Positions 14,899 through 54,880 of a stretch of 64,000 nucleotides of DNA are shown in pieces. The translations under genes were made by a program, and so were the position numbers. The notes beneath the pieces are model-generated. The model saw nothing but the letters and a program-made list of their open reading frames with translations, did not search any database and was not told the DNA's origin. Within the stretch, counting starts at the first letter, position 1; each line of letters starts with the position of its first letter. Source of the DNA: Homoserinimonas sp. OAct 916 (GTDB lineage Bacteria; Actinomycetota; Actinomycetes; Actinomycetales; Microbacteriaceae); assembly GCF_003260275.1 (NCBI RefSeq), contig NZ_QJHB01000001.1:1-64000 (forward strand), in the 5' to 3' direction.

Positions 14899-16155
14899 TC
14901 AGCCCTCCTGGGCCAAGCGCTTCGACCGCGCGGCCAGTTCATCTTCGACAAGAATCGGCCTGGTCAACCAGAACCCGGCGACACCGGCAACCGCCGCCGA
15001 GACCAGCAGCAGGTAGATCGGCGCCTGCCAGCCGCCGGTCACCTCGTGCAGCATGGCCACCAACAGCGGTCCGAGTGCGCCGAGGGTGTAGCCGACGCTC
15101 TGCACGAACGCGCTCAGCTGCACCGCCATGCCATGGGTGCGAGTGCGGGTATTGATCAAGACCAACACCACCGGGAACAGCAGCGGTCCGGCCCCGATCA
15201 AGGTGACCCAGAGCCACGGCAGGAGCACTGGAACGGTGAGCAGCCCCAGATACCCGGCAAACCAGCACCCGACCCCGACGTAGACCAGGATGGCGGCGTT
15301 CTGCATGCGTGCCGCCAGCACCGGGATCAGTAGGGCGGCGGGCAGGCCGATCGCCGAGTAGAGCGAGAGCATCAGCCCCGCTTCGCCGACGCCCACCTGC
15401 GCCAGGTCGATCATGAGGCGTGGAATCCAGGCGAACATGGCGTACGCGTTCAGCGACGACATGGCGAACACCACGCCGAGCGCCCACGCAATCCGGGAAT
15501 GCCAGACGCGGCCGATCTCGGTCGCATCCGGCACTTCAACGAGCCGGCGACCCTGCCCGCTCGCCCCAGTCTGCGATCGTCTGCCCACGAGGATTCCGAG
15601 CCAGGGCAACGCGGCCACCAGCGCGAGAACAGCCCAACTGCCGAGTGACACCCGCCAGCCGGCCTGGGCGGCCATCGGTGCCGCCAAAAGGGGCGGCAAG
15701 AATGTGCTCACCGAGAGAACCGCCGCGTACAGTGCGGTGAGCAGGCCGATCCGGTCGGGAAAATAGCGTTTCACCAGTGGGGGCAGCAGCACGTTGCCGG
15801 CGCCCATGCCGGCGAACGCGACCACACTGCCTGCCAGCAGGATGCCGACACCGGGCGCCGAGGCGCGCACCAGATGGCCGACCAGCATGATTGCGCAGAC
15901 GACGACCACGCTCGTCTCGAGACCGACACGCCGGGTCAGGCGGGGCGTGAGAATGCCGAAGATCGCGAAACTCACCGGCGGGAGCATGCCGATGATCCCC
16001 AGGTCGAGGCTGGACAGGGGGATGTCTTTGGTGATGTGGTTGACAATCGGCGACAGCGCCGTGACCGCCGCTCGCAGATTGAGGGCGAGCATTATGATGC
16101 CGATGAACGCCAGGGTTCGCCCGCCCCACAGGGGCAGGGTGCGGTTGGCTGGCAT
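14899..16155 (-). CDS. MFS transporter, CynX/NimT family (tandem paralogue)
   Basis: A 418-residue paralogue of the following gene, sharing LRAAVTALSPI near the N-terminus and the GMGAGNVLLPPLVKRYFPDRIG block almost letter for letter, with 12 predicted membrane helices and a shorter central loop. The pair probably arose by tandem duplication. It has its own leaderless promoter, TAGAAT (16162-16167), six bases before ATG 16155. The downstream copy also has one, so the two can be expressed separately. Substrate unknown. Confidence 0.85.
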   Translation of the reverse strand: MPANRTLPLWGGRTLAFIGIIMLALNLRAAVTALSPIVNHITKDIPLSSLDLGIIGMLPPVSFAIFGILTPRLTRRVGLETSVVVVCAIMLVGHLVRASAPGVGILLAGSVVAFAGMGAGNVLLPPLVKRYFPDRIGLLTALYAAVLSVSTFLPPLLAAPMAAQAGWRVSLGSWAVLALVAALPWLGILVGRRSQTGASGQGRRLVEVPDATEIGRVWHSRIAWALGVVFAMSSLNAYAMFAWIPRLMIDLAQVGVGEAGLMLSLYSAIGLPAALLIPVLAARMQNAAILVYVGVGCWFAGYLGLLTVPVLLPWLWVTLIGAGPLLFPVVLVLINTRTRTHGMAVQLSAFVQSVGYTLGALGPLLVAMLHEVTGGWQAPIYLLLVSAAVAGVAGFWLTRPILVEDELAARSKRLAQEG

Positions 16156-31006: not shown

Positions 31007-32065
31007 TCAACTGCGGGCGAGCTGCTCCGTCAGTGCGTCGACGAACGCTGCTGGGTGCTCCAGGTGCGGAGAGTGCCCGCAATCATTCAGCAGCAATTCG
31101 TTCGTTCTACCCCCGGCGGCCCGGTAGGACTCCAGCACCCGGCGCGTCTGCGCGATCATCTGCTGCGGCGGTGCCGCCTCCGCGCCCGGCCAGCCGGGGA
31201 TGACGCCCAGCGACCCAAGAAAGTTGAGGTCGAAGGCCGACGCGTCGGACACGATCGCGTCGTTCTCGCCGTGGATCCACAGGATGGGCGGCTTGTCCGC
31301 GAGGTCGACGATCCCGGTGACATTGAAATACTGCGGGGCCATGGTGTTCAGCACCCCGCGGGTGCCCGGCGCGAACCCGGGCCAGTTCTCCGATGCCGAG
31401 GAGGTTCCGGGATAGTTGTCGTCGCCGGTGGCAGTGGTCAGCATCGACTGCACCCACAGGTCTTCGTGCTTCGAGACGAACCCGTCGGCGACATAGCTGC
31501 TGCGGTACACCGAGCGGGGCGATGTCTGTTCATCAGATGTCAGGTCGCCGGCCGCGAGCCGCGCGATGAAGTCGGGGTTCGCCCCTCCGCCGCCGGTGCC
31601 CGCACCATCCGGGGTGAGCATCCGTCCGTCCGCGGCCGTGCCGCCGAACCCGTAGGGAGAGACCGGGGCCACCAGCGTGAGGCCCGAAACGAATTGAGGA
31701 TGCTCCAACAACAGTTGCATCGCCACACCGCCACCCATGCTCCAGCCGACCACCTGCGCGCGGTCGATCTCCAGAGTCTCGAGCACCGACACCACGTCGT
31801 CGGAGAAGTCTCCGAGTCCGCGGGTGGCGTCCACCGGGAGGGTGGAGCTGCCGCCGAACCCGCGCAGGTCGATCGCGAGCGCGCGCACGGACGCGGGCAT
31901 CTCGAGCATCACCGGTTGCCAGAACAACGAACTCGACACGTTGCCGTGGATGAACACGACGGTGCTCGATGCGTCGGAGGTGGGCCGCTCGAGTACGTTC
32001 GCCGTCAGGCGCGCGGTGGTGACGGTGCGCTGCTCGATACCATCGAGAATTGTTGGGGTGTTCAT
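31007..32065 (-). CDS. alpha/beta hydrolase
   Basis: A 352-residue alpha/beta-hydrolase-fold enzyme of unknown substrate. Oxyanion region VVFIHGNVSSS, nucleophile elbow GWSMGG (Ser near residue 109), acid in WIHGENDAIVSD, and catalytic His in NDCGHSPHLEHP near the C-terminus. The cap domain is long and Gly-rich (DGAGTGGGGANPDF). No signal peptide. GGGAGG stands six bases before ATG 32065. It lies 118 bases after the CoA-transferase unit in the same direction and may be read as its tail, but the gap makes this uncertain. Confidence 0.8.
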   Translation of the reverse strand: MNTPTILDGIEQRTVTTARLTANVLERPTSDASSTVVFIHGNVSSSLFWQPVMLEMPASVRALAIDLRGFGGSSTLPVDATRGLGDFSDDVVSVLETLEIDRAQVVGWSMGGGVAMQLLLEHPQFVSGLTLVAPVSPYGFGGTAADGRMLTPDGAGTGGGGANPDFIARLAAGDLTSDEQTSPRSVYRSSYVADGFVSKHEDLWVQSMLTTATGDDNYPGTSSASENWPGFAPGTRGVLNTMAPQYFNVTGIVDLADKPPILWIHGENDAIVSDASAFDLNFLGSLGVIPGWPGAEAAPPQQMIAQTRRVLESYRAAGGRTNELLLNDCGHSPHLEHPAAFVDALTEQLARS

Positions 32066-32183: not shown

Positions 32184-32891
32184 TCAGGACCGCAGCGTCG
32201 CCGCGTCTCTCGCGGTGCCTGTCGCGGTGTCTGTTGCGGCCTCTGTCCCAGAGACGCCTTCGGCAATCGTCAGGGGTGCGCCCGTCGCTGCCACGATCTC
32301 ATCAGCGGCGACACCGGGAGCGCACTCGACCAGCACGAGACCATCCGGTGTCACATCGATCACCGCGAGGTCGGTGATGATGCGATCGACCACACCACGC
32401 CCGGTCAACGGCAGGGTGCACTCGGAGACGATCTTCGCCGACCCGTCACGAGCGACGTGCTCCATCAGCACGATCACCCGGCCGGCGCCGTGCACGAGGT
32501 CCATCGCACCGCCGGGGCCCTTGACCATCGTGCCGGGGATCATCCAGTTGGCGAGGTCACCGCCTTCGGACACCTGCATCCCGCCGAGGATGGCCGCGTC
32601 GATCTTGCCTCCCCTGATCATCCCGAAACTCATCGCCGAGTCAAAGTACGACGCTCCGTCCAGGACGGTGACCGTCTCCTTGCCCGCATTGATGAGGTCG
32701 GGATCGACTGCCGTGCGCGCAGGATAGGGCCCGACCCCGAGGATGCCGTTCTCGGACTGCAGGATCACGGTCACGTCGTTGGGCACATAGTTGGGCACGA
32801 GTGTCGGAAGTCCGATTCCGAGGTTCACGTAGGAGCCGTTGGTCAACTCGAGCGCCGCCCGGGCGGCCATCTCGTTCCTGGTCAGAGCCAT
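32184..32891 (-). CDS. scoB: 3-oxoacid CoA-transferase subunit B
   Basis: With subunit A transfers CoA from succinyl-CoA (or acetyl-CoA) to a 3-oxoacid such as acetoacetate. The catalytic Glu that carries the CoA thioester is in [12 protein letters not shown] (near residue 47); [12 protein letters not shown] and [18 protein letters not shown] are standard. 235 residues, with a low-complexity Ala/Thr tail ([17 protein letters not shown]) beyond the normal end. Two bases separate it from scoA; it is the last gene of the 11-gene unit. Confidence 0.93.
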
Positions 32892-32893
32892 GG

Positions 32894-33667
32894 TCAGGCC
32901 TCCTCGGTCACGGTCAGCTTTTCAATACGTTTCTCGATGTCGCTCCCGACCAGGACAACACGGTCGACGTAGACGCCGGGCAGGTGCACCCGGTCGGGAT
33001 CCAGGCTGCCCGCTGGCACCAGTTCCTCCACCTGCGCGATACACACCCGGCCCGCCATCGCCGCCAAGGGCGAAAAGTTGCGGGCCGTCTTGTTGAAGAT
33101 CAGATTGCCGTGCGTGTCACCGACGGCGGCGTGCACCACTGAGAAGTCGGTGGTGATCGCCTCTTCCAGCACGAAGTCACGGTCGACGCCGCGCACCGGG
33201 AAACAGGCGGTGGGCTTCGCCGTCGACGCGAGTACGATACTGCCGTCGGCGGCGTAGCGCACCGGCAACCCGCCGTCGGCCACCTGGGTGCCGACTCCGG
33301 TCTGGGTGTAGAACGCGGCGATTCCGCTGCCGCCGGCGCGCAGTTTCTCGGCGAGGGTGCCCTGGGGGGTGAGCTCGAGGTCGAGTTCACCAGTCAGGTA
33401 CCGCCTCGCGAACTCCTTGTTCTCGCCGACGTATGATGACGTCATCTTCGTGATCAGCCCCTCGGCGAGCAGCAGCCCGAGACCCCAATCGTCCACACCG
33501 CAGTTGTTGCTCACGATCGCAAGGTCTGAGACCCGCCTCGCGAGCAACGCCTCGATGACCGCCATCGGATTGCCGCACAGCCCGAAGCCGCCGACCGCGA
33601 TCGAGGCACCGTCTGGAATATCGGCCACTGCTTCTTCGGCCGAATCCACAACCTTTGAGAACGTCAT
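32894..33667 (-). CDS. scoA: 3-oxoacid CoA-transferase subunit A
   Basis: Alpha subunit of the succinyl-CoA:3-oxoacid CoA-transferase family. Typical N-terminus [37 protein letters not shown] with the Gly-rich CoA loop, then [12 protein letters not shown], and [18 protein letters not shown] near 134-151. 257 residues, of normal length. It overlaps the upstream hydrolase by ATGA and is followed by scoB after two bases. In this unit the pair would activate acetoacetate from the dehydrogenase reaction to acetoacetyl-CoA for the thiolase. Confidence 0.93.
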
Positions 33668-34572
33668 CGCCTGCCCTCCAAGTCGTCTGTCTTGCCACCG
33701 TGTTCATCGGCCTGCACGTGGGCCCGAAGAACGGTGGCGACGAATCGCGCTCCCTCCTTCGACATGATGATCGTGTAATGGTTCACATCCGGCACCTCGA
33801 GCACGCGACGTGAGGGGAGCTCGTCCCACTCGGAGGCTGTCCTGGCCGCGTAGAGTGCCGCCGGCTCGTTCATCAATCCGCGCGGTGCCCGCAGAAATTC
33901 GATCGGTACAGCCACCGCAGCGAGAGCCTCGGCGTAGCCGGCGCTGCCGTCAAGTTGCAACACGTCTTCGGCAACCGCGGCCACCTGCGTCGACGGGATG
34001 AATCCCGAGTCGGTCTCGTCGAGGTCGTAGTCGACGTAGGCCTCGAACTCCGGTGACCACTGGTCGGCGAACGCTGGGTGCCGGCGCCAGAACCGGGCGT
34101 ACTCGGCCCGGCTCGCGAAGGTCTGGGTCAGCCGGTCTGCGGCCGGCCCGAGCATGGCCGCCGGGTCTGCATTCGCGGGCCGGGGAATCGGAAGCCCCCC
34201 GTCGACCAGTACCAGCGAGCGCACCCTGGCCGGATGCCTCTCCGCCAGGCGCACCGAAACGAATGCCCCCATGGAATGGCCGACGACGACAGCATCGTCG
34301 ACCGCGAAGGCGTCGAGCAGCGCCGCCATATCGTCGGCGTGCCGTTTCAAACCGTACGGCCCGGGCAACCCGTTGCTGCGGGCTCGGCCGCGCAGGTCGG
34401 GCGCAATGATGCGGGTGGTCGGCAGGGCCCTGGCCAGGAACGGCCAGCTGTAGTGCGAGGCCGTGATGCCATGAATGGCGAGAACGACGGGGCCGGGTGC
34501 AGTGGGATTCCAGACTCCCCCGGCCAACTCGCCGCCGGCGACCGGCACCCGAAATGTTTCGTAGTCGTTCAT
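33664..34572 (-). CDS. alpha/beta hydrolase in the 3-hydroxybutyrate unit
   Basis: A 302-residue alpha/beta hydrolase: LAIHGITASHYSWP, nucleophile Ser in GHSMGAFV (near 98), and catalytic His in VPDVNHYTIIM (near 272). No signal peptide. It is embedded between the dehydrogenase and the CoA-transferase with ATGA overlaps on both sides, so it belongs to the pathway. Cleavage of a 3-hydroxybutyrate ester, oligomer or CoA thioester would make sense, but the substrate is inferred only from context. Confidence 0.82.
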   Translation of the reverse strand: MNDYETFRVPVAGGELAGGVWNPTAPGPVVLAIHGITASHYSWPFLARALPTTRIIAPDLRGRARSNGLPGPYGLKRHADDMAALLDAFAVDDAVVVGHSMGAFVSVRLAERHPARVRSLVLVDGGLPIPRPANADPAAMLGPAADRLTQTFASRAEYARFWRRHPAFADQWSPEFEAYVDYDLDETDSGFIPSTQVAAVAEDVLQLDGSAGYAEALAAVAVPIEFLRAPRGLMNEPAALYAARTASEWDELPSRRVLEVPDVNHYTIIMSKEGARFVATVLRAHVQADEHGGKTDDLEGRR

Positions 34573-35315
34573 CGGGCGCTCCAGCCCCCATCCATGGTGT
34601 GGCTCGCGCCGGTGACCATGCCGGCGTCTGGTCCGGCCAGCCAGAGCGCGAGGCTCGCGACCTCTGAGGGTTCGACCAACCGTTTGATCGCCGACTCGGC
34701 CAGCATCACGTCGGTCACCACCTGGTCTTCGCGGATGCCGTGCAGTTTCGCCTGCCCCGGCAGTTGCGCCTCGACCAATGGCGTGCGCACATAGGTCGGA
34801 TTGATGCAGTTGCTGGTCACCCCGTGCGCTCCGCCTTCGAGCGCCGTCACCTTCGACAGGCCCTCCAAGCCGTGCTTGGCCGCCACGTAGGCGCTCTTGT
34901 ACTGGGATGCCCGCAACCCGTGCACGCTGGACAGGTTGAGCACCCGGCCGAAGCCCTGCTCATACATGTGCGGCAGCGCAGCACGGATCAGCAGGAACGG
35001 AGCCTCCAGCATCACCCGGAGCATGAGGGCGAACCGCTCCGGGTCGAAGTCTTCTATCGGGGCCACGTGCTGCAGGCCGGCGTTGTTGACAAGGATGTCG
35101 CAGTCGAGGCTCACGTCGCGAAGTGCGACCGTGTCAGAGAGGTCGACAGCCCACGAGTCTCCATCCAGCTCGGCGGCAACCTCGGCCGCCGCCTCGCCGT
35201 TCAGGTCCGCGATCGTCACCCGTGCACCCGCCGCGGCGAATGCGCGGGCGCAGGCGGCGCCGATCCCGCTGGCGCCGCCGGTGATCAGTGCTGTGCGGCC
35301 GGTCAGATCGGTCAT
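34569..35315 (-). CDS. bdhA: 3-hydroxybutyrate dehydrogenase (SDR family)
   Basis: Short-chain dehydrogenase that oxidises (R)-3-hydroxybutyrate to acetoacetate with NAD. 248 residues: cofactor motif TGGASGIG (13-20), NNAGLQHVAPIEDFDPERF (the QHVAPIEDF stretch is a hallmark of 3-hydroxybutyrate dehydrogenases), catalytic Ser in LNLSSVHG and Tyr-x3-Lys in SAYVAAKHG, then a VTSNCINPTYVRTPLVE loop. The ATG at 35315 overlaps the TetR stop by ATGA and matches the family N-terminus; the open frame upstream is out of character. The specificity call rests on the motif and on the neighbouring CoA-transferase. Confidence 0.87.
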   Translation of the reverse strand: MTDLTGRTALITGGASGIGAACARAFAAAGARVTIADLNGEAAAEVAAELDGDSWAVDLSDTVALRDVSLDCDILVNNAGLQHVAPIEDFDPERFALMLRVMLEAPFLLIRAALPHMYEQGFGRVLNLSSVHGLRASQYKSAYVAAKHGLEGLSKVTALEGGAHGVTSNCINPTYVRTPLVEAQLPGQAKLHGIREDQVVTDVMLAESAIKRLVEPSEVASLALWLAGPDAGMVTGASHTMDGGWSAR

Positions 35316-35998
35316 GGTTTCGCCCTTTCGCTGGGGGTGGTTGCGCCGGGGTTGGCCACACTGTCGGCCGGCGCCCGCAATGCTCCCTCGATGAATCGCA
35401 TCATCTCGTCGAAGACGTGCTCGGGAACCTGGTTCGTGCCACTCGCCGTGGGGTCGGCATCCGCGCCCTGGTCGCCGTCGCCCCAGAGCACCCAGCGCAT
35501 GCCGATCATTTCGCCGATGCCCATCAGTGCCCACGCGGCCACGGTCGGGTCGATGTCGCTGATCTCGCCCGCCTCACCCGCCTCGGTGAGGCCCTGGATG
35601 TAGCCCTCGACGATGCGGGTGTAGTGCAGCCGGAGCGCCCCGGGCGACACGAACTCGGCTTCCCTGATCACCCGGTACAGGGCCGGGTGTTCCGCGGTGA
35701 AGGTGAAGAACGCCCGGAATCCGGCCCGCTCCGATTCAATCCGGTTGGTGGTCTCGGCGCTGGCAGCGCTCATCGCCTTGCGCACCCGGTGGTTCAGGTC
35801 TTCGACCAGTTCGTTGAAGATGTCGAGTTTGGTCGCGAAGTAGAGGTAGAACGTTCCCTGGCCGATGCCCGCGGCCTCGGTGATCCGCGAGACGGATGCC
35901 TCGGCGTAGCCGTACTTCGCAAAGACGCGCTCGGCCGCCTCGAGCAGTCGCCTTCTCGTGGCGACACCGCGGGCGGTGCGGGGTGGTGAAATCGTCAC
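35312..35998 (-). CDS. TetR family transcriptional regulator
   Basis: A 228-residue repressor-type protein: helix-turn-helix RRRLLEAAERVFAKYGYAEASVSRITEAAGIGQGTFYLYFATK (about 12-55), then a ligand-binding domain with the EHPALYRVIREAEFV helix common in regulators of fatty-acid-type catabolism. GTG 35998 overlaps the synthetase stop (GTGA) and has GAGGAGG seven bases upstream, so this start is preferred over the longer open frame. It sits in the middle of the unit it probably controls; the 20-bp palindrome at 42415-42434 is the best candidate binding site. The ligand may be an acyl-CoA (inference). Confidence 0.88.
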   Translation of the reverse strand: MTISPPRTARGVATRRRLLEAAERVFAKYGYAEASVSRITEAAGIGQGTFYLYFATKLDIFNELVEDLNHRVRKAMSAASAETTNRIESERAGFRAFFTFTAEHPALYRVIREAEFVSPGALRLHYTRIVEGYIQGLTEAGEAGEISDIDPTVAAWALMGIGEMIGMRWVLWGDGDQGADADPTASGTNQVPEHVFDEMMRFIEGALRAPADSVANPGATTPSERAKP

Positions 35999-37614
35999 CG
36001 GTCGGCCTCCTCGGAGAAAGGGATCGACGCCGGCACGACGTCGTCTCGCCACTGCTTGAGCAACTCGTGCCTCAGCACTTTGCCGGCACTCGACCGGGGA
36101 ATCTCTGCGACGAATCGCACCCGAGCAGGCACTTTGAATCTCGCCAGTTGGCTGCGGGCGTGCGCGAGTAGGTCAGCCTCGTCGGTGGCGCGAGAAGCAT
36201 TGGCCACCACGAACGCGACACCCACCTCACCCCAGCGTTCGTCGGCAACTCCGACGACGGCGGCGTCGCTCACCGCCGGGTGCTCGAACAGCACGCGCTC
36301 GACCTCGGCAGGCGCAACGGACTCACCGCCCGAGATGAACACGTCGCTGAGTCGGTCAATGACCTGGAAGTAGCCGTTCTCGTCACGTCGCACCAGATCA
36401 CCGGTGTGCAGCCAGCCGCCCTGCAGTGCTCGTTCGGTCAGTTCGGGGGCGCGAAAATAACCTGCGAAGACTCCGGGGCCACGAACGAGGAGTTCGCCCT
36501 CGGCAGCCCCATCCCGTTGTTCGCCGGTGACCGGGTCGGCGACGGCGACTTCGACGTGCGGGTAGGGCAAGCCGGCGAATCCCGCCATTCGGGTCGCGTC
36601 CTCGTCGGGCAGGCAGAGCACGTTCGGGCTGGCCTCGGTCAACCCGTAGCCCTGGCTGAGAGAGACGCCGCGCGCATGCCAGGTACGCAACAATGGCTCG
36701 GGCATCGGTGCCCCGCCGACGATGGCGTGGGTCAGGCTGGACAGGTCGGTGCGGGCGAAGGACCGATGCTGGGCGAGAAAGAGATAGTTGGTCGGCACGC
36801 CCATCGTGGTGGTGATGCGCCGGTCGGCGATCAACTGCAATACCCGGCCGGGGTCGAACGTGCGCTCGAGCACGACCGTCGCGCCCACCCACCAGGCCAA
36901 CAACGGTTGAATGTTCCAGCCGCCCACATGGTATTGCGGCATCACCGCCAGGACCACGTCGGAACTGGTGAGTTCGGCGATGCGGGAGAGGGACAGGTTC
37001 GTCCAGAAACAGTTGGCGTGGGTGAGCACCGCCGCCTTTGCGCTGCCCTGGGTGCCCGAGGTGAAGATCATCAGCAACGGGTCGTCATCGCGGACCCCGC
37101 GCGTCGTGCGAGATTCACCGCCTGTGCCCAGAGTCGGATGTCGGGGTGACGGCACCTCGACCTCGACGCCACGGGCCCCGAGTTGCGTGATCGGTGGCGC
37201 GTCGACGGCACGCTCTGCGGCCGCGCGTGCGAGGGTGGCGAACTCGTCCTCGATCACGAGCAGTGCGGGGTCGGCCAGTTGCAGCTGTTCGGACAGCTCA
37301 CGCACCGAGAGCCGCCAGGACAGCGGCACCAGCACGAGCCCGGCCTTGGCACAGGCGAAGAACAGTACGACATGATCTGCACTGTTGCCGGTGACGGTGG
37401 CGATGCGGTCTCCGATGAGGTAGCCGGCCTGAAGGAGGGCGCCGGCCAACGCGGCCGCCCTGTCCTCCAACTGGCCATAGCTCAGTGGCACTCCCCGGTC
37501 GTCGACGGCCACCCGCTCCGGGGTCGCACGCGCACGGTCGCTGGTCCACCGCCCCAGGCAATGCAGACCGTCGGGGTGCAGTGATTCGGTTTGCGGAGGC
37601 AGCGTGTGGATCAC
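35995..37614 (-). CDS. acyl-CoA synthetase (AMP-forming)
   Basis: A 539-residue member of the ANL superfamily which activates a carboxylic acid with ATP and CoA. Motifs in order: P-loop IFTSGTQGSAKAAVLTH (about 183-199), MPQYHVGGWN, GYGLTEASPN, GWLHTGD, the hinge region DVFISGGES and the acyl-adenylate Lys in SSAGKVLRHELL near the end. The motif set fits medium/long-chain-type ligases; chain length cannot be told. GTGA overlap with livM upstream places it downstream of the transporter, so it would trap the imported acid as a CoA ester. Confidence 0.88.
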   Translation of the reverse strand: MIHTLPPQTESLHPDGLHCLGRWTSDRARATPERVAVDDRGVPLSYGQLEDRAAALAGALLQAGYLIGDRIATVTGNSADHVVLFFACAKAGLVLVPLSWRLSVRELSEQLQLADPALLVIEDEFATLARAAAERAVDAPPITQLGARGVEVEVPSPRHPTLGTGGESRTTRGVRDDDPLLMIFTSGTQGSAKAAVLTHANCFWTNLSLSRIAELTSSDVVLAVMPQYHVGGWNIQPLLAWWVGATVVLERTFDPGRVLQLIADRRITTTMGVPTNYLFLAQHRSFARTDLSSLTHAIVGGAPMPEPLLRTWHARGVSLSQGYGLTEASPNVLCLPDEDATRMAGFAGLPYPHVEVAVADPVTGEQRDGAAEGELLVRGPGVFAGYFRAPELTERALQGGWLHTGDLVRRDENGYFQVIDRLSDVFISGGESVAPAEVERVLFEHPAVSDAAVVGVADERWGEVGVAFVVANASRATDEADLLAHARSQLARFKVPARVRFVAEIPRSSAGKVLRHELLKQWRDDVVPASIPFSEEADR

Positions 37615-38708
37615 ACCAACTCCTTCTCTTCAACCGTCTGGTTGCGTCGAGCGGCTTGAACGCTTGCGGGAATCCCCGCGATGCCACCGGGCAGGAACAA
37701 CACCACGAGAATGAACAGCGTCCCGAGGATGAACAGTGGTTGCGACAAGGGTATCCGAAGGATATCGGGCAACGAGGCGACCGCCTCGGACCCCGCGAGT
37801 GCGGTCAGCCTCTGGTCGAGCAGTGTGTACACGATTGCGCCGAGCACGGCACCCCAGCGGTAGCCGACCCCACCGAGCACCACGATCACCAGGAGTGACA
37901 ATGTGAAGTCGGGAGTGGCCACTCGCGGGGACACCCCGGACTGCAGCAAGAGGAATCCCATCCCTGCGATTGCGGCCAATACCCCGGCGATGGCGAAGAT
38001 GACCAACCTGACCCCGTACGGCCGGATACCGAGCACGCGCACTCGCAGGTCGTTCTCCCTGGCCGCGGCCACCACGTGGCCGGCCCGGGACTTCTCCACC
38101 CAGAGCGTCACCAAATAAACCACGACCAGGATGGCCAGTGCCAGCCAGTACAGGTTCTTGGTCTGGAGCACCCCGACGAGCGCGTCGGGCACACGGGTCA
38201 CATCCAGCGGCAGACCCTCTTCACCGCCGGTCTTCTTGCCGGGGTTGCGCCTGACCAGCACTGAACCCGCCTGCGCGAAGGCGAGGGTGACCATGGCGAA
38301 CGAGATGCCGGTCACGCGCAGGCTGAGCGCGCCCACGAACGCCGAGAGAATGATCGCGAACACGATGGTGATCAGGATCGCAGCGACGAATGCGCCGCCA
38401 GGAGGCAGCCACTCGGGCGCGAAGTTGCGAAGCACCACGCCGAGCCCGTAGGCGCCGGCCGCGAAGAACAGCGCATGGCCGAAGCTCAGCATGCCTGCCA
38501 GACCGAACAACAGGTGGTAGCTGAGCGCGAGTGCCGCGATCAGCATGGCGTACGCGAGCACCTGTAGTGTTCCTGGCGTGTAGGACGGGCCGGGGAAGAC
38601 ACCGGGAATATCGATGGCGAGCAGCGGAAGGAGCGCGGCGAACCCGATCAATGCGACACTGGCGGCCACGATGATCCCGGCGCGCATCCGGGCAGATATC
38701 TTTGTCAT
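37611..38708 (-). CDS. branched-chain amino acid-type ABC transporter permease (LivM family)
   Basis: A 365-residue inner-membrane permease with about nine to ten helices. The LLFGLAGMLSFGHALFFAAGAYGLG segment near 65-90 and LRVTGISFAMVTLAFAQ near 130-145 are LivM signatures. It pairs with the LivH-type permease immediately upstream (ATGA overlap). LivM-type systems carry branched-chain amino acids, urea, amides or short organic acids; the enzymes encoded next suggest a carboxylate. Confidence 0.9.
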   Translation of the reverse strand: MTKISARMRAGIIVAASVALIGFAALLPLLAIDIPGVFPGPSYTPGTLQVLAYAMLIAALALSYHLLFGLAGMLSFGHALFFAAGAYGLGVVLRNFAPEWLPPGGAFVAAILITIVFAIILSAFVGALSLRVTGISFAMVTLAFAQAGSVLVRRNPGKKTGGEEGLPLDVTRVPDALVGVLQTKNLYWLALAILVVVYLVTLWVEKSRAGHVVAAARENDLRVRVLGIRPYGVRLVIFAIAGVLAAIAGMGFLLLQSGVSPRVATPDFTLSLLVIVVLGGVGYRWGAVLGAIVYTLLDQRLTALAGSEAVASLPDILRIPLSQPLFILGTLFILVVLFLPGGIAGIPASVQAARRNQTVEEKELV

Positions 38709-39583
38709 CGCACACTCTTCCCCATCAGGCCCTGTGGCCGGATCAGCAGCACCGCGGCCAGCGCCAGTACGACTGCGAGGTCACCGGTGCCCCAGAGGTA
38801 GTAATTCGCGAACTGCTGCAACACCGCCACCAGCACACTGGCAACGGCAGCACCGGCCAGGGAGCCGAGGCCGCCGATCACCGTGACGATGAAGGCGAAG
38901 ATCAGAAGCGATCCCCCGATGTGGGCTGAGACGTAACCGTAGTAGACCGAGGCGAGCACACCGCCGAGCCCGGCCGCGGCCCCACCGATGGCGAACACGA
39001 GGGTGAACGCGCGCCGCACATCGATTCCGAGGGCCGTGACCATCGACCGGTTCTCGACCCCGGCCCGGATGATCAGACCGTAACGGGTGTGTTTGAGGAA
39101 AAGCACGATCGCGAGCAGCACCAGCGCGGCGCAGCCGATCAGGAGGAAACGACTGTTCGGGATGCGTGCTCCGAGGATCTCAGTGGTCAGCCCCAGCCAT
39201 TCCGGGTTGACCACATAGATCGGGTCGGTGCCCCAGATCCCCTCGAACAGTGCAACCGAGGCCAGGGCCAGACCGACCGTGACCAACACCTGTTCGATGT
39301 GCCTGAGGTACAGCGGCCGGATCAGAAAGAACTCGGTGGCCGCGGCGAAGGCGGCACCGATGATGGCTCCCGCGATCATGGAGGCACCGAGTGTCCACCA
39401 TGTGCCGTCGCTCAGCCGTCTGGCCACCTCCCAACCGATGAACGCGCCGAGGGTGAGGAAGGAGCCGTGGGCGAAGTTCAGCACGCCCATGAGGCCGTAG
39501 ATCAGGGACAGCCCGGAGGCCACCAGGAAGTACAGTGCCCCGAGGCCGAGGCCGGTGATCAACAACAGCACGATGGTGCTCAT
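38705..39583 (-). CDS. branched-chain amino acid-type ABC transporter permease (LivH family)
   Basis: A 292-residue permease with about eight helices. GLSLIYGLMGVLNFAHGSFLTLGAFIGW near 25-52 is the LivH hallmark, and the C-terminal GGLGSLAGAAVASVLVAVLQQF helix is typical. It overlaps livF-like upstream and livM-like downstream by ATGA. Forms the translocation channel with the LivM-type subunit. Confidence 0.9.
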   Translation of the reverse strand: MSTIVLLLITGLGLGALYFLVASGLSLIYGLMGVLNFAHGSFLTLGAFIGWEVARRLSDGTWWTLGASMIAGAIIGAAFAAATEFFLIRPLYLRHIEQVLVTVGLALASVALFEGIWGTDPIYVVNPEWLGLTTEILGARIPNSRFLLIGCAALVLLAIVLFLKHTRYGLIIRAGVENRSMVTALGIDVRRAFTLVFAIGGAAAGLGGVLASVYYGYVSAHIGGSLLIFAFIVTVIGGLGSLAGAAVASVLVAVLQQFANYYLWGTGDLAVVLALAAVLLIRPQGLMGKSVR

Positions 39584-40371
39584 ACCGACACCTCTTCGTT
39601 CGTCGAGCTGTCGGCCGCGGCAGCACTGCTGCTTTCTGCACTGCTGCTTTCTGCACTGCTGCTTTCTGCACTGTCTCCGTGCACACCCAGCAGTCGGGTG
39701 ATCAGGTCTTCGTCATCGAGCAACTCGTCGGCCTCACCGGTGAACACGACCCGACCGTCGGCGAGCACCACAACCCTGTCGGCGAGTTGTCGGATCACCT
39801 GCAGGTTCTGCTCCACCAGGAGAATCGGCACCGTGCGGGCTGCGGTCTCCAGCGCGTTGGCGACCTCGCCGACGATCCGGGGCGCCAACCCCTTGGTCGG
39901 CTCGTCCACCAGCAACAGCTTGTTGGTGTTCAGCAACGCCCGTGCCAACGACACCATCTGTTGCTGCCCGCCAGACAGCGTGCCCGCGCGCTGTGCTGCG
40001 CGCTGCACCAGATCGGGGAACAGCTCGTCGATGAACTCGCGGTTCGGGGCGGCATCTCGTTCGGCCAGCTTCAGGTTCTCGGCCACCGTGAGGGCAGAGA
40101 AGATCTCGCGGTCCTCGGGAACGTATCCGATGCCCAGTTGAACGATCTTGTGGGTGGGCATCCGATCAATACGGCGTCCTTCGAAGGTGACCTCGCCGGT
40201 GCGGGTGATCAGTCCCAGGATCGATTTGATGGTGCTGGTCTTGCCCACGCCGTTGCGACCCAGAAGCGCGGTCACGCCGGTGCTCGGCACGTCGAAGGAG
40301 ACATCTTCGACGACCTGTTGGCCTGCGATGCTGCCTCGAAGCGCTCGCACCGAAAGGATGTTCTCGCTCAT
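39580..40371 (-). CDS. ABC transporter ATP-binding protein (LivF family) with repeat tail
   Basis: ATPase subunit of the Liv-type importer, 263 residues. Walker A GRNGVGKTS (about 38-46), signature LSGGQQQMVSLARALL and Walker B KLLLVDEPTKGLAP; YVPEDREIFSALTVAENLKL is typical of LivF. The conserved part ends near residue 235 (DLITRLLGVHGD) and is followed by SAESS pentapeptides encoded by a perfect 15-bp repeat, then AAAADSSTNEEVSV. The tail is unlikely to affect ATP hydrolysis. ATGA overlaps on both sides. Confidence 0.9.
   Translation of the reverse strand: MSENILSVRALRGSIAGQQVVEDVSFDVPSTGVTALLGRNGVGKTSTIKSILGLITRTGEVTFEGRRIDRMPTHKIVQLGIGYVPEDREIFSALTVAENLKLAERDAAPNREFIDELFPDLVQRAAQRAGTLSGGQQQMVSLARALLNTNKLLLVDEPTKGLAPRIVGEVANALETAARTVPILLVEQNLQVIRQLADRVVVLADGRVVFTGEADELLDDEDLITRLLGVHGDSAESSSAESSSAESSSAAAADSSTNEEVSV
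39623..39667. repeat. perfect 15-bp tandem repeat (3 copies) in the LivF C-terminus
   Basis: Three identical copies of GCACTGCTGCTTTCT at 39623, 39638 and 39653 plus GCACTG of a fourth. They code for Ser-Ala-Glu-Ser-Ser units at the end of the ATPase. Perfect identity suggests recent slippage. Confidence 0.9.
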
Positions 40372-41138
40372 GCCGTCGCTCCCAGATACGCCGATTGCAC
40401 GCGTTCGTCGGCCATCACCTTCTGGGGGGTGTCGCAGGCGAGCAGTTCGCCGTGGTGCATGACGGCCACCCGGTCGACCAACCCCATGACAACCTCCATG
40501 TGGTGCTCGACCATGAGCACCGTGCGTCCGCCGTGGTGCAGACCGCGAATGACGTCCATCAGCCCTGGTACGTCGCCGGATCCGACGCCGGCCATCGGTT
40601 CGTCGAGCAGAATGACCCGCGGCTCCATCGCCAGCAGCATCGCGATCTCCAATTTGCGTTTGTCTCCGTGCGAAAGGCCGCCGGCCAGGGCGTGGCCCCG
40701 GCTGGCGAGCCCGACCTCGGCCAGGCGGTCCTGGGCGACGCGGTTCGCGTCGTCCGAACCACGCGGGAAGCGGGTCACCCGCGTGGCACCGCCGGCCTGT
40801 ACCTGGGCGGCGAGCCGAACGTTCTCGGTCGCGGAGAGCCCGTTGAACAGGCTCGAGGTTTGAAAGGTGCGGCCCAGGCCAGCCCGTGCCCTGGTGTGGA
40901 TCGGTTCGCGAGTGACTTCTCTGCCATCGAGGCGAACCACACCCTCGGTCGCGGTGAGAACACCCGAGATCACGTTGAACAGGGTGGTCTTTCCCGCCCC
41001 GTTCGGGCCGATCACACCGAGCATCTCGCCTGCGGCGACCGACAGCGACACATCCCGGAGGATCTGCGCACCGCCGATCTGCAGGCCGACGCCGTCTATT
41101 TCAAGTACAGCGGCTTCGAGTACGGGCTGGCCGGTCAC
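40368..41138 (-). CDS. ABC transporter ATP-binding protein (LivG family)
   Basis: Second ATPase of the Liv-type importer, 256 residues. Walker A GPNGAGKTTLFN (about 39-50), the LivG-specific TRARAGLGRTFQTSSLFNGLSATENV, signature LSHGDKRKLEIAMLLA and Walker B VILLDEPMAGVG. The signature has His where LSGG is usual, a common LivG variant. Its GTG start is five bases after the livK-like stop, and it overlaps the livF-like gene by ATGA. Confidence 0.9.
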   Translation of the reverse strand: MTGQPVLEAAVLEIDGVGLQIGGAQILRDVSLSVAAGEMLGVIGPNGAGKTTLFNVISGVLTATEGVVRLDGREVTREPIHTRARAGLGRTFQTSSLFNGLSATENVRLAAQVQAGGATRVTRFPRGSDDANRVAQDRLAEVGLASRGHALAGGLSHGDKRKLEIAMLLAMEPRVILLDEPMAGVGSGDVPGLMDVIRGLHHGGRTVLMVEHHMEVVMGLVDRVAVMHHGELLACDTPQKVMADERVQSAYLGATA

Positions 41139-41143
41139 GGAAA

Positions 41144-42370
41144 TTAACCGATCGGCGGCGCGACGACGTCAGCGTCGACCACGTCAACCAGCTCCGGAGT
41201 CCAGTTGCCGTCGGCATCCTTGACCAGTTTGGCCTGGAACATCGGCTGGATCATGGCGTGGTCCTCGGCACGAACCGTGACCGAACCCTTCACCGAGTCG
41301 AACGTCCAGCCCTCAAGGGCACCGATCATGTCGTCGACGTTGTCTCCGCCGCCGGCGGACACAGCCTGGACGAGCATCTGGGCCGCCACAAAACCATCGG
41401 GTGTGAACAGGTCTGCCTGCTCCCCGGCGGCGTCGAGGTGGGCGATCATCGCCTGGCTGGCGGCGTTGTCCGTTGCGGAACCGAAGTAGTGCGACAGGAA
41501 GCTGATCTTGTCGCTGGCGGGGCCGTAGGCACCGTAGGTCGACAGGTCACCCAGTCCGGTCACGACCGGAATCGAGTCGAAGACACCCTGCTGCTGGAGG
41601 GACTCCCACATCGCTCCTGACGAGGCACCGGCCCAGGCCACGAAGACCAGGTCGGGCTTCGCGTCGAGCAGCTGCTGCGAGAACGGGGTGAACTCGGTCG
41701 CGTCCTCGGCGACCAGTACGCCGTCAACGGTGGCGCCCTTCGCACCGAGCACGGCCTCGACGCCGGCGAGGTTGCCCTGGCCGAACGCGTTGTCCTGCGC
41801 GAACACGACGATCTTCTTGCCTGAGGGATCACCGATGAACGTGCCGGAAGTGGCGACATCCTGGTAGGTCTGGCGGCCGGAACGGAAGGTGTACTCGTTC
41901 ACCCCGGTGATGACGTCGGCGGCTGCCGGGCCCGAGAGGTACAGAACCTTGTTCTGTTCGGCCTGTTCGGCCAGCGAAACGGCGATGCCGGACACGACGG
42001 TGCCGGCGAGGATCTGGTAGCCCTGACCGATCAGGTCCTTGGCCTTGGAGACGGCGGTGTCAGGGTTGCCCTGGTCGTCTTCCCACGTGATCTGCAGCTC
42101 ACGACCGTCGACAGCGCCGGTACCATCGGTGGCATAGTCGAGCCCCGCGTTGAAACCGTTGACGTACGCTGCGCCGTATGCCGCGAGCGGGCCGGTGATC
42201 GAGGTGATCATGCCGACTTGTACCGGGTCGCCCGTGGCCGGGGCACTCGTCTCGCCGGCAACGGGCGCGGTGCTGGGAGCAGGGTCTGCTCCGGTTGGTG
42301 CGCAACCGACCAGCACCAGGGCGGCGGCTGCGATCAGCGCCGGTGCCGCAAACTTCTTTGTTACCCGCAT
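41144..42370 (-). CDS. Liv-type substrate-binding lipoprotein
   Basis: A 408-residue periplasmic-binding-type protein anchored by lipid at Cys23 of the lipobox LVGC, after a short signal peptide. The mature protein is a type I binding fold: VQVGMITSITGPLAAYGAAYVNGFNAGLDY, ELQITWEDDQGNPDTAVSKAKDLI, and GTVVSGIAVSLAEQAEQNKVLYLSG follow the LivJ/AmiC pattern. First gene of the unit, with AAGGA before the ATG and a promoter region carrying a 20-bp palindrome. The ligand is not predictable from sequence; a hydroxy or keto acid would suit the downstream enzymes. Confidence 0.9.
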   Translation of the reverse strand: MRVTKKFAAPALIAAAALVLVGCAPTGADPAPSTAPVAGETSAPATGDPVQVGMITSITGPLAAYGAAYVNGFNAGLDYATDGTGAVDGRELQITWEDDQGNPDTAVSKAKDLIGQGYQILAGTVVSGIAVSLAEQAEQNKVLYLSGPAAADVITGVNEYTFRSGRQTYQDVATSGTFIGDPSGKKIVVFAQDNAFGQGNLAGVEAVLGAKGATVDGVLVAEDATEFTPFSQQLLDAKPDLVFVAWAGASSGAMWESLQQQGVFDSIPVVTGLGDLSTYGAYGPASDKISFLSHYFGSATDNAASQAMIAHLDAAGEQADLFTPDGFVAAQMLVQAVSAGGGDNVDDMIGALEGWTFDSVKGSVTVRAEDHAMIQPMFQAKLVKDADGNWTPELVDVVDADVVAPPIG

Positions 42371-42414
42371 GGGGACTGCCTTTCCTTACAGTGAACGACG
42401 ATAATGGATTGTGA

Positions 42415-42434
42415 ACCTGACACATGGTTCAGGT
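42415..42434. promoter_or_regulatory. 20-bp palindromic operator candidate between livK-like and thiolase genes
   Basis: ACCTGACACATGGTTCAGGT has outer arms ACCTGA / TCAGGT perfectly inverted, and seven of nine half-site positions match, the size usual for a TetR dimer site. It lies upstream of CATTAT (complement of 42401-42406), a -10 candidate for the leftward unit, and of TATGAT (42445-42450), a -10 candidate for the thiolase. One bound repressor could therefore control both. The TetR gene in the unit is the likely partner (inference). Confidence 0.55.
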
Positions 42435-42538
42435 CTCAGAAACCTATGATGGATGTAGGCCGCTGTCAAGTCGAAACGCGTGGGCAGCCGCAGGACACGA
42501 AGCAACGAACAGAGAAACAAGCACAGAATGAGGTCATC

Positions 42539-43723
42539 ATGAGCAACACCGAGGTCGTCATCATCGCAGGGTCGCGCACACCGCAGGGACGGGTCAACGG
42601 GCAGTTGTCTTCGATGACCGCCGTGCAGTTGGGAACCGCCGCCATCGCCGGCGCACTGGCACGAGCCACGGTCACCGGCGACCAGGTGGACGCCGTGGTG
42701 ATGGGGCAGGTGCTGCAGGCCGGTTGCGGGCAGAACCCGGCGCGTCAGAGCGCGATTGCAGCAGGCATCCCGTGGAACGTTCCCTCGATGACGGTGAACA
42801 AGGTGTGCCTGTCCGGCCTCGCCGCCATCATCGATGCCGCCCGCATCATCCGCCTCGGTGAAGCGAGCGTGGTGATCGCCGGCGGCCAGGAGTCGATGTC
42901 ACTTGCCCCCCACCTGTTGCCCGGCTCCCGGCAGGGCTGGCCGTATGGCAGCGTCACGGCCCTGGACCACGCCGCCCACGACGGCTTGAGCGATGCCTTC
43001 GACGGCCTGTCGATGGGGCTTTCCACCGACAATCACAACACCAGGCTGGGTATCGGCCGGCTGGAGCAGGATGAGATAGCCGCCGCCTCACACCAGCGCG
43101 CGGCGAAGGCACAAGCCGACGGCCTGTTCGCGGATGAGATCACCCCGCTCGCCGTGCCGCAGCGCCGAGGCGAGCCATTGGTGGTCGACACCGATGAGGG
43201 AGTGCGCGCCGACAGCACCACCGAGACGCTGGCCCGGTTGCGGCCCGCCTTCGATCCTTCCGGAACCATCACCGCGGGCAACTCGTCGCCGCTCAGCGAC
43301 GGCGCCAGCGCGGTCGTGGTGGCCAGCCGGGCGTGGGCCGAGGAGCACGGTCTGCCGTGGCTCGCCGTGGTGGAGGCATCCGGCCAGGTCGCCGGCCCCG
43401 ACAACTCCCTGCACTCGCAGCCGGCGAATGCGATCATTCGCGCGCTGACCCGTCAGGGCTGGCAGGCCGACGACCTCGACCTGGTCGAGATCAACGAGGC
43501 GTTTGCCGCGGTCGCGCTGGAGTCCACTCGGGAGCTCGGGATCACCGCAGACCGGGTCAATATCCACGGCGGGGCGATCGCGATCGGGCATCCCATCGGC
43601 TCCTCTGGAACCCGGCTCGCCCTGCACGCAGCATCGGAGTTGGCGCGTCGCGGCACCGGCAAGGCCGCTGTCGCCCTCTGCGGGGGCGGCGGCCAGGGCG
43701 AGGCGCTGCTGCTGCGGCGCTGA
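42539..43723 (+). CDS. acetyl-CoA C-acetyltransferase (thiolase)
   Basis: Cleaves acetoacetyl-CoA (or a longer 3-oxoacyl-CoA) with CoA to acetyl-CoA, or the reverse. 394 residues with nucleophile Cys90 in NKVCLSGL, the NEAFAA loop, catalytic His in GGAIAIGHPIGSSG and the second Cys in ALCGGGGQGEA (about 381). Chosen start is ATG 42539 (MSNTEVVIIAGSRTP), which matches thiolase N-termini; the frame is open another 45 codons through the promoter region. Divergent from the Liv/CoA-transferase unit, it would finish 3-hydroxybutyrate catabolism. Confidence 0.93.
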   Translation: MSNTEVVIIAGSRTPQGRVNGQLSSMTAVQLGTAAIAGALARATVTGDQVDAVVMGQVLQAGCGQNPARQSAIAAGIPWNVPSMTVNKVCLSGLAAIIDAARIIRLGEASVVIAGGQESMSLAPHLLPGSRQGWPYGSVTALDHAAHDGLSDAFDGLSMGLSTDNHNTRLGIGRLEQDEIAAASHQRAAKAQADGLFADEITPLAVPQRRGEPLVVDTDEGVRADSTTETLARLRPAFDPSGTITAGNSSPLSDGASAVVVASRAWAEEHGLPWLAVVEASGQVAGPDNSLHSQPANAIIRALTRQGWQADDLDLVEINEAFAAVALESTRELGITADRVNIHGGAIAIGHPIGSSGTRLALHAASELARRGTGKAAVALCGGGGQGEALLLRR

Positions 43724-53770: not shown

Positions 53771-54880
53771 TCACTTGATTCCGGCCGCCGTGCACGCTGC
53801 TGCGTATTCCGGGGTGCAGATCTGCGCGACGGTGTAGAAGCCGTCCTTCACGACCGTGTCCATGATGTTCTTCACCGTGACCACAACCGGCACCAACAAG
53901 GTTGTCGGTACACCGTCGGTTGCGCCGCTGGTCCCTGTGAGCGTTACGCCGTTGACCACGTCTACGGCCAGTTGGGCCGCCGTCTCAGCCTCTTGCTTCA
54001 ACGCCTTGTAGATCGTCATGTACTGGTCTCCGCTCACGATGCGCTGGATTCCGGCGAGTTCGGCGTCTTGACCGGTCACTGGCGGGATGGGGTTGACCCC
54101 CGCCGCCTTCATGGCCGCTATGGCTCCACCCGCTGTGCCGTCGTTCGCCGCGTAGACACCATCGATCTGTCCGCTGAATTTGGTGACCTGGCCAGCCATC
54201 CACTGCTGTGCCTGGTCGGGGCTCCAATCAGGGGTGTCGAACTCGGCAAGGATCTTGAGCCCGCTCTTGTCGAACACGCTGTGCGCACCCTTTTTGAACA
54301 ACACCGCATTGTTGTCGGTCGGTGACCCGTTGATCATGATGATGTTGCCGGTGTCCTTACCGTCTTCCTTCAACTTGGCATCGAGGGCGGTCGCCTGCAG
54401 CACTCCGACCTTCTCGTTGTCGAATGACAGGTAGAAGGCGATTTTGTTGCTGTTGATCAGCCGGTCGTAGGAGATCACCGGCACGTTTTGGGCGGTGGCC
54501 TCTTCAACGATGCTGGCGGCGGCTGACGAATCGACCGGGTCGAGCACCATCACCTTGACGCCCTGGGTCAGGGCAGATTCGGCCTGTTGCTGCTGTTTGG
54601 CCGCATCCTGATCCGCGTTGGAATAGACGACGGTGCAATCCGGGCACAGCTCTTTGACCTTTTGTTCGAACAATGGGCGGTCATAGGCCTCGTATCGGGT
54701 GGTCTTCGACTCCGGCAGGAGCAACGCGATCTTGGCGCTACTGGATGCCGGCGCCTGGCTGGCCCCTGAGCTCGCCGGATTCTCCGCGGGGGTGCTGTTT
54801 CCCGAGCATGCCGTGAGGGTTCCGGCTGTCAGCAGAACTGCCGCGATTGCGGTGACAGTTCTGAGTGCAGTGATCTTCAT
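53771..54880 (-). CDS. sugar-binding lipoprotein (XylF type)
   Basis: A 369-residue extracytoplasmic binding protein, lipid-anchored at Cys25 of LTAC. Type I periplasmic fold similar to xylose-binding XylF: KIALLLPESKTTRYEAYDRPLFEQKVKEL, VPVISYDRLINSN, the hinge IDGVYAANDGTAGGAIAAMKAAG and PPVTGQDAELAGIQRI. The order binding protein - ATPase - permease matches actinobacterial xylose-type importers. D-xylose is the best guess, not proven; no xylose isomerase or kinase is nearby. ATG 54880 follows GGAAGG; the open frame begins five codons earlier. Confidence 0.85.
   Translation of the reverse strand: MKITALRTVTAIAAVLLTAGTLTACSGNSTPAENPASSGASQAPASSSAKIALLLPESKTTRYEAYDRPLFEQKVKELCPDCTVVYSNADQDAAKQQQQAESALTQGVKVMVLDPVDSSAAASIVEEATAQNVPVISYDRLINSNKIAFYLSFDNEKVGVLQATALDAKLKEDGKDTGNIIMINGSPTDNNAVLFKKGAHSVFDKSGLKILAEFDTPDWSPDQAQQWMAGQVTKFSGQIDGVYAANDGTAGGAIAAMKAAGVNPIPPVTGQDAELAGIQRIVSGDQYMTIYKALKQEAETAAQLAVDVVNGVTLTGTSGATDGVPTTLLVPVVVTVKNIMDTVVKDGFYTVAQICTPEYAAACTAAGIK

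Follow-up and report, generated by a model that had tools for sequence, protein, structure and literature searches.

A block of genes on the minus strand of Homoserinimonas sp. OAct 916 very probably serves the import and catabolism of the hydrolysis products of poly-3-hydroxybutyrate (PHB) under a TetR-family protein, as judged from sequence comparison. The block lies within positions 1 to 64,000 of contig NZ_QJHB01000001.1 (the window, 64,000 nucleotides) in a genome of 3.64 Mb, and comprises eleven intact open reading frames (ORFs) from livK to scoB (42370-32184) that encode the components of a Liv-type ATP-binding cassette (ABC) importer together with enzymes assigned to 3-hydroxybutyrate (3HB) catabolism and the regulator (Table 1). 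An earlier note on this DNA had described the block as an eleven-gene unit with overlapping junctions except at livK/livG and scoA/scoB; recomputation returned that pattern, in which neighbouring genes share 4 bases at 8 of 10 junctions (ATGA at six, GTGA at two) and the two exceptions are gaps of 5 and 2 bases, respectively, and all eleven ORFs are indeed intact, but abh2, a second hydrolase gene that travels with the block, had been omitted. The 20-bp palindrome across which the thiolase gene was said to diverge is also present, although the thiolase ORF, open from 42404, most likely starts at ATG 42539 (MSNTEV...). The proposal in the same note of a single pathway from 3HB to acetyl-CoA, fed by a Liv-type importer, gains support at the sequence level from linkage of the block to secreted PHB depolymerases and from the replacement of ligand residues in the binding protein.

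Table 1 Features of the block and its flanks in the window
Feature	Coordinates	Strand	Basis and conservation
livK-like substrate-binding lipoprotein, 408 amino acids, lipobox ...LVGC	41144..42370	-	Pfam Peripla_BP_6, 211 bits
livG-like ATPase	40368..41138	-	Pfam ABC_tran and BCA_ABC_TP_C; in 72/72 relatives
livF-like ATPase	39580..40371	-	Pfam ABC_tran; in 72/72 relatives
livH-like permease	38705..39583	-	Pfam BPD_transp_2
livM-like permease	37611..38708	-	Pfam BPD_transp_2; in 72/72 relatives
AMP-forming acyl-CoA synthetase (acs), FadD/PRK06187-like, GTG start	35995..37614	-	Pfam AMP-binding; in 70/72 relatives
TetR-family regulator (tetR), GTG start; proposed repressor of the block	35312..35998	-	Pfam TetR_N; in 70/72 relatives
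(R)-3-hydroxybutyrate dehydrogenase (bdh)	34569..35315	-	NCBIfam TIGR01963, over cut-off
alpha/beta hydrolase (abh); proposed 3HB-oligomer/ester hydrolase	33664..34572	-	Pfam Abhydrolase_1; in 71/72 relatives
3-oxoacid CoA-transferase subunit A (scoA)	32894..33667	-	NCBIfam TIGR02429, 225.6 bits (cut-off 128.5)
3-oxoacid CoA-transferase subunit B (scoB)	32184..32891	-	NCBIfam TIGR02428, 321.2 bits (cut-off 243.55)
second alpha/beta hydrolase (abh2), PhaZ-related, added to the block	31007..32065	-	118 bp after scoB; in at least 58/72 relatives
divergent acetyl-CoA C-acetyltransferase (thiolase)	42539..43723	+	NCBIfam TIGR01930, 424.3 bits (cut-off 240.55)
proposed TetR operator, half sites ACCTGA / TCAGGT	42415..42434		kept in 77/80 livK upstream regions

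The connection to PHB comes from relatives, which were taken as the best 80 of 207 confirmed LivK loci in a genome-contig scan with flanks that stop at 10 kb; among these, from which records very close to the window’s own may be missing, the nearest livK orthologs in named genomes are from Cryobacterium (up to 80 percent identity). Clustering of neighbouring genes placed an Esterase_PHB-type gene beside the block in 7 of the 80 loci (Promicromonospora, three; Cellulosimicrobium, two; Antribacter and Nocardioides, one each), divergent from livK in six and, in Nocardioides, after abh on the same strand, an independent placing. The Nocardioides gene (L105:17997-19340) occupies the position that abh2 holds in other loci. 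All four of the seven esterases that were scanned exceeded the cut-off of Pfam Esterase_PHB, and all four likewise exceeded that of the model for extracellular short-chain polyhydroxyalkanoate (PHA) depolymerases with a type 1 catalytic domain (e_dPHAscl_type1, NF050058; 163.6, 177.2, 175.8 and 177.2 against a cut-off of 150); the one compared with the PDB matched best to 8daj, ‘Esterase, PHB depolymerase family’ (E = 3.6e-15), with a feruloyl esterase next (8e-10). A search of 130 genomes from the family that includes G731, the Cellulosimicrobium genome supplying the query, found the depolymerase in 16 and livK in 23, and every one of the 16 depolymerase carriers has livK (Fisher P = 2e-15, uncorrected for shared ancestry); in 15 of these carriers, depolymerase and livK lie next to each other in divergent orientation, with less than 0.5 kb between their aligned parts, and in the other (G710) they lie on different contigs. 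Among 49 livK carriers, from a selection of 50 of the genomes behind the 80 loci that was thinned for redundancy with all seven linked loci kept, 13 have a depolymerase: the seven known cases and six with the gene on another contig. The depolymerase was found in 0 of 396 genomes drawn from the phylum, a weak control with about three candidates scored per genome; the same query does match in the other genome sets.

The regulatory evidence centres on the palindrome ACCTGACACATGGTTCAGGT, separated from livK by 44 bp and from the thiolase start by 104 bp. Of its 20 positions, 16 are self-complementary: the two 6-bp half sites are perfect and the spacer matches at 4 of 8. In a zone of up to 200 bp upstream of livK, ACCTGA-N8-TCAGGT was recovered at 10 or more of the 12 half-site positions in 77 of 80 loci (51 at 12, 22 at 11 and 4 at 10; 29 distinct sequences), whereas mononucleotide shuffles would give 0.46 loci. 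The site is missing from L040, L051 and L074, which are exactly the three, out of 75 that could be judged, with no acs-tetR between livM and bdh, a coincidence with a chance of 1 in 67,525 under independence of the loci, an assumption that does not hold. A palindrome conserved at a divergent promoter, and absent where tetR is absent from the block, is what would be looked for in the operator of a local TetR repressor, and these comparisons support a tie between the palindrome and the presence of tetR; the TetR operator that the earlier note had placed at 42415-42434 therefore stands as a conserved site that tracks the regulator gene, with binding by the protein predicted.

The exact pattern ACCTGANNCNNNNNTCAGGT was derived from the livK sites, so that matches before livK are expected and what is telling is the small number and the location of the remaining sites. 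Across 40 of the 49 carrier genomes it gave 27 sites in 24 genomes, and the reversed control gave 0. Twenty-three of the sites precede livK (identified by tblastn) and another (G703:C161) is identical to the livK operator of its genome, leaving two before unlinked PHB depolymerase genes (L165, L175) and one in Agromyces, where a second Liv-type operon (livG-livF-livK-livH-livM; L174, L176) follows at a distance of about 100 bp. Among the six unlinked depolymerase genes, three (L135, L136 and L132) have an upstream operator at 11 or 12 of 12 positions. A chance palindrome was rejected on the ratio of 77 of 80 loci to 0.46 expected and on the empty reversed control. The window site is the sole exact match in its own genome, where allowing one mismatch adds 6 further sites against 3 control matches, too near the control to interpret. 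A promoter scan of 42340-42600 found no sigma-70 consensus, which is uninformative for an actinobacterium. The second Agromyces operon with its exact upstream operator (L176:5752-10625, in G694:C14) may import another PHA-derived acid.

With an E value of at most 1e-60, LivK was detected in 32 of the 299 genomes searched from the window’s family and in 9 of 396 drawn from the phylum, and the block is therefore accessory. Gene content was counted in 72 loci, the other 8 of the 80 having less than 9 kb of downstream flank. The importer genes livKGFHM are present in all 72, in the same order throughout, and are joined by abh in 71, acs in 70, tetR in 70, bdh in 57 and scoA in 51; abh2, scoB and a thiolase on either side of the block are found in at least 58, 49 and 42 loci, respectively, these far-gene counts being lower bounds owing to the 10-kb flanks. 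At least one of acs and the pair bdh plus scoA is present in every one of the 72 relatives. Of the ten Cryobacterium loci, nine retain the importer, acs, tetR and both hydrolases without bdh and scoAB, and L040 and L051 of Agromyces retain bdh and scoAB without acs and tetR. Conservation of the block thus holds for the linkage, in variants, of importer to these enzymes (72 of 72) but does not extend to bdh and scoAB in every relative. The unlinking of transporter and enzymes, which the earlier note had named as a sign against a single pathway, is accordingly seen in part, in the Cryobacterium loci and some others; all 8 checked genomes with a bdh-less block carry a TIGR01963 match (288-318 bits, E no higher than 1e-60) at another place.

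Six remoter relatives, with LivK at 45-56 percent identity, still have one or more of abh, abh2, tetR, acs and bdh, partly at low identity, close to the importer genes. In one relative at 45 percent LivK identity (L115, G538; 15222-15341 and 8410-9195), livM is followed by a gene resembling bdh (43 percent), and a scoA-like gene that begins divergently upstream of livK is interrupted by the contig end. The block at L116 (G416:C1:3179000-3198999) is decaying: its livK contains an in-frame TGA, livG, livF and livH were not found between livK and livM, and abh2, acs and tetR remain. A search of plasmids with LivK returned 18 distant matches, the best of which, on a Rhodococcus opacus plasmid, has a different gene neighbourhood.

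The dehydrogenase, both CoA-transferase subunits and the thiolase all pass curated NCBIfam cut-offs, bdh at 309.5 bits against 307.05 for TIGR01963, and the top 13 PDB matches of bdh are all hydroxybutyrate dehydrogenases. The family model that recovers ScoAB/PcaIJ does not separate succinyl-CoA:acetoacetate from 3-oxoadipate transferases, and the acyl-CoA synthetase scores 429 bits with NCBIfam PRK06187, under the cut-off of 476. With these assignments, secreted PHB depolymerases (the cell’s own in some relatives, those of other organisms here) would release 3HB and short oligomers, and the lipoprotein with LivHMGF would take up 3HB, its oligomers or both. The two hydrolases would cleave oligomers to the monomer, the dehydrogenase would convert 3HB to acetoacetate, ScoAB would move CoA onto acetoacetate and the divergent thiolase would convert acetoacetyl-CoA to two acetyl-CoA, with the acyl-CoA synthetase perhaps offering a second activation route for a 3HB-derived acid. 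The operon-encoded TetR would act at 42415-42434 to keep the two divergent promoters repressed until it binds an intermediate of the pathway.

The form in which 3HB enters the cell turns on the two hydrolases, both of which we read as probably cytosolic because neither sequence starts with an evident signal peptide. The putative nucleophile (HSMG) and histidine (NHY) motifs of abh are invariant across 36 aligned sequences, and a Foldseek search with its structure model returned generic hydrolases, the curacin thioesterase domain and PA1622 being the top fold matches and Bacillus thuringiensis PhaZ appearing at rank 26. By contrast, the best PDB match of abh2 is 8ynv, the PHB depolymerase PhaZ of B. 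thuringiensis (E = 2.5e-20), and its top NCBIfam family is the intracellular PhaZ model i_nPHAscl (NF050089), which is matched by 18 of 18 aligned abh2 members at E up to 0.001. PHB synthase (PF07167) was absent from 38 of 39 genomes searched, the window’s own included, the sole carrier being the Nocardioides of locus L105. The presence of a PhaZ-like hydrolase lacking a signal peptide in cells that have no PHB synthase suggests that oligomers are imported, and we lean towards the interpretation that the Liv-type importer carries intact 3HB oligomers (ester-linked dimers and trimers) that are cut only in the cytosol. With it, and with the same leaning, goes a dedicated TetR regulon that would also control the secreted PHB depolymerase, carriers without a depolymerase, Homoserinimonas sp. 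OAct 916 among them, having what may be a ‘scavenger’ module that lives on polymer digested by others.

A possible, though distinctly less probable, alternative is that the importer handles only the monomer, (R)-3-hydroxybutyrate and perhaps acetoacetate, and that the hydrolases serve other esters, such as thioester or lactone by-products. The generic structure of abh, with PhaZ so far down its list of fold matches, would suit this interpretation, and secreted depolymerases and environmental hydrolysis release monomer as well. However, abh and abh2 (71 and at least 58 of 72 relatives) are no rarer than the monomer enzymes bdh (57) and scoA (51), the nearest structure to abh2 is a PHB depolymerase, and in nearly all carriers a PhaZ-like enzyme has no stored polymer on which to act.

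We caution that several observations weigh against the assignment of the block to PHB breakdown products, or against the oligomer and regulon proposals joined to it. Thirty-six of the 49 livK carriers lack an Esterase_PHB-type depolymerase and the window’s own genome has no Esterase_PHB match, so that the link to PHB here runs through relatives, and the family-level co-occurrence of depolymerase and livK is phylogenetically clustered and may reflect few events. Only three of the six unlinked depolymerases have a strong upstream operator; that of L134 is weak (10 of 12), and none was found upstream of L133 (G733, where the block has tetR) or L137 (G709, where it does not). No specific family could be assigned to abh, and abh2, at 118.7 bits against an i_nPHAscl cut-off of 300 with its best stretch confined to residues 29-143, resembles PhaZ but falls short of membership in that family. 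Finally, bdh or scoAB lies outside the block in part of the relatives, and the family cut-off of TIGR01963 was reached in just 5 of the 9 genomes searched for it (the eight with bdh-less blocks and the window’s own).

The importer itself has the composition of a Liv/HAAT-type ABC transporter: a single operon encodes a Peripla_BP_6 binding protein, two permeases of the BPD_transp_2 family and two ATPases. The AlphaFold model of LivK (mean predicted local distance difference test score, pLDDT, 85.8) has RPA4397 of Rhodopseudomonas palustris (3n0x; Z = 40.9) as its closest solved structure by both sequence and fold, and the next fold matches include 4-hydroxybenzoate-binding (Z = 39.0) and vanillate-binding (37.2) proteins. 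These neighbours, together with the weaker matches of the linked esterase to feruloyl and acetylxylan esterases, would fit the import of a different acid, a short hydroxy acid or an aromatic one, whose polymer or esters the PHB depolymerase-like esterases would attack. We consider this unlikely because the dehydrogenase falls in the 3HB family above its cut-off, all four tested of the seven linked esterases exceed the cut-off of the extracellular PHB depolymerase model, the one compared with the PDB has its best match in the PHB depolymerase family, and the block contains no ring-cleavage gene.

Amino acid binders are equally among the close folds of LivK (4maa, 37.6; 7jfn, 37.1), and fold alone therefore cannot decide the ligand; with the Liv-type fold and operon layout, they are what speaks for an ordinary branched-chain amino acid importer, in which ScoAB and the thiolase would handle leucine-derived acetoacetate and the PHB link would be incidental. 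Leucine catabolism does terminate in acetoacetate. Yet LivK reaches 57.9 bits with the curated model of branched-chain amino acid binding proteins, far below its cut-off of 477, and LivH reaches 96.1 bits against 379 for NCBIfam LivH; models of the urea importer UrtABC failed too (UrtA, 47.7 against 492.75; UrtB, which LivH matches at 179.6, against 250.3). Docking in Escherichia coli LivJ, as given in passages of PMC6983066, names Tyr18, Leu77, Cys78, Ser79, Ala100, Ala101, Thr102, Ala103, Tyr150, Tyr202 and Phe276 as ligand contacts. In all 72 orthologs of the 80 loci with a full-length alignment, Thr102 and Tyr202 appear as Ala and Tyr150 as Phe, while Tyr18, Ser79 and Phe276 are retained, single positions being tentative at about 21 percent identity; a LivK paralogue of the same genome (G000:C84, L145) keeps both Tyr150 and Tyr202. 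Another paralogue of this genome (L146), whose translation was probably out of frame, was left out of the comparison. LivJ Glu226, which is absent from the docking list and which we take to be a further ligand residue, aligns to Thr271 of LivK, with Asp275 four positions further on. By this alignment LivK is without several of the residues that hold branched amino acids in LivJ. The block also contains no leucine-pathway enzyme, and an amino acid importer would leave the operator and the depolymerase linkage unexplained. Ordinary branched-chain amino acid transport was rejected on the LivK and LivH scores and the replaced contacts, and we regard it as very unlikely.

Mobilization of the cell’s own stored PHB, for which bdh, scoAB, the thiolase and a PhaZ-like hydrolase form the textbook intracellular route, was rejected as extremely improbable because PHB synthase is missing from 38 of the 39 genomes, because an importer is part of the operon and because, in some relatives, a secreted depolymerase comes under the same operator.

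Two further features were noted in the window. The 3′ end of livF (about 39620-39670) contains a 15-bp unit that is repeated in tandem about three times and encodes a repeated SSAES, and a minus-strand stretch at 54047-54634 gives a weak Peripla_BP_6 match (21.9 bits, below cut-off) and is possibly another binding protein.

In accounts of bioplastic degradation, the step by which PHB fragments reach the inside of the bacterial cell seems to be missing. In the open-access literature, outside of which most subscription journals fall, no Liv-type importer of 3HB or its oligomers was found, nor this TetR; the passages of PMC5017801 on a TetR protein and an ABC transporter concern other genes, and those of two reviews and one comparative-genomics paper on PHB degradation name depolymerases, dehydrogenases and CoA-transferases but no importer of 3HB or its oligomers. 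The enzymes and the transporter type are thus of known kinds, and it is their combination, the ligand class and the regulon that were not found described. If our interpretation of the block as a PHB-product importer is true, an importer defined by its regulon would provide a genetic marker separating PHB consumers from PHB digesters and would correct a likely branched-chain amino acid annotation in many actinobacterial genomes, and the 20-bp operator would serve as a handle for finding further PHB-related genes.

Uptake of 3HB is shared with the 3-hydroxybutyrate permeases, which are single-protein permeases of Gram-negative bacteria and, to our knowledge, are neither ABC importers nor coupled to oligomer hydrolases. 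The order of enzymes from oligomer to acetyl-CoA is that of the bacterial PHB degradation route (PhaZ/PhaY, Bdh, and ScoAB or AacS; PMC7830162), whose passages there name no transporter, whereas here the enzymes share one operon with a dedicated ABC importer and a TetR protein. The importer resembles the Liv/HAAT systems (LivKHMGF, the Rhodopseudomonas aromatic-acid binders and RPA4397) in having one binding protein of the Peripla_BP_6 fold, two permeases and two ATPases; among the matches listed, no relative has a title that mentions bound 3HB or a bound oligomer of it, and the block differs from these systems in the replacement of several LivJ ligand residues and in an operon shared with PHB-catabolic enzymes and tetR.

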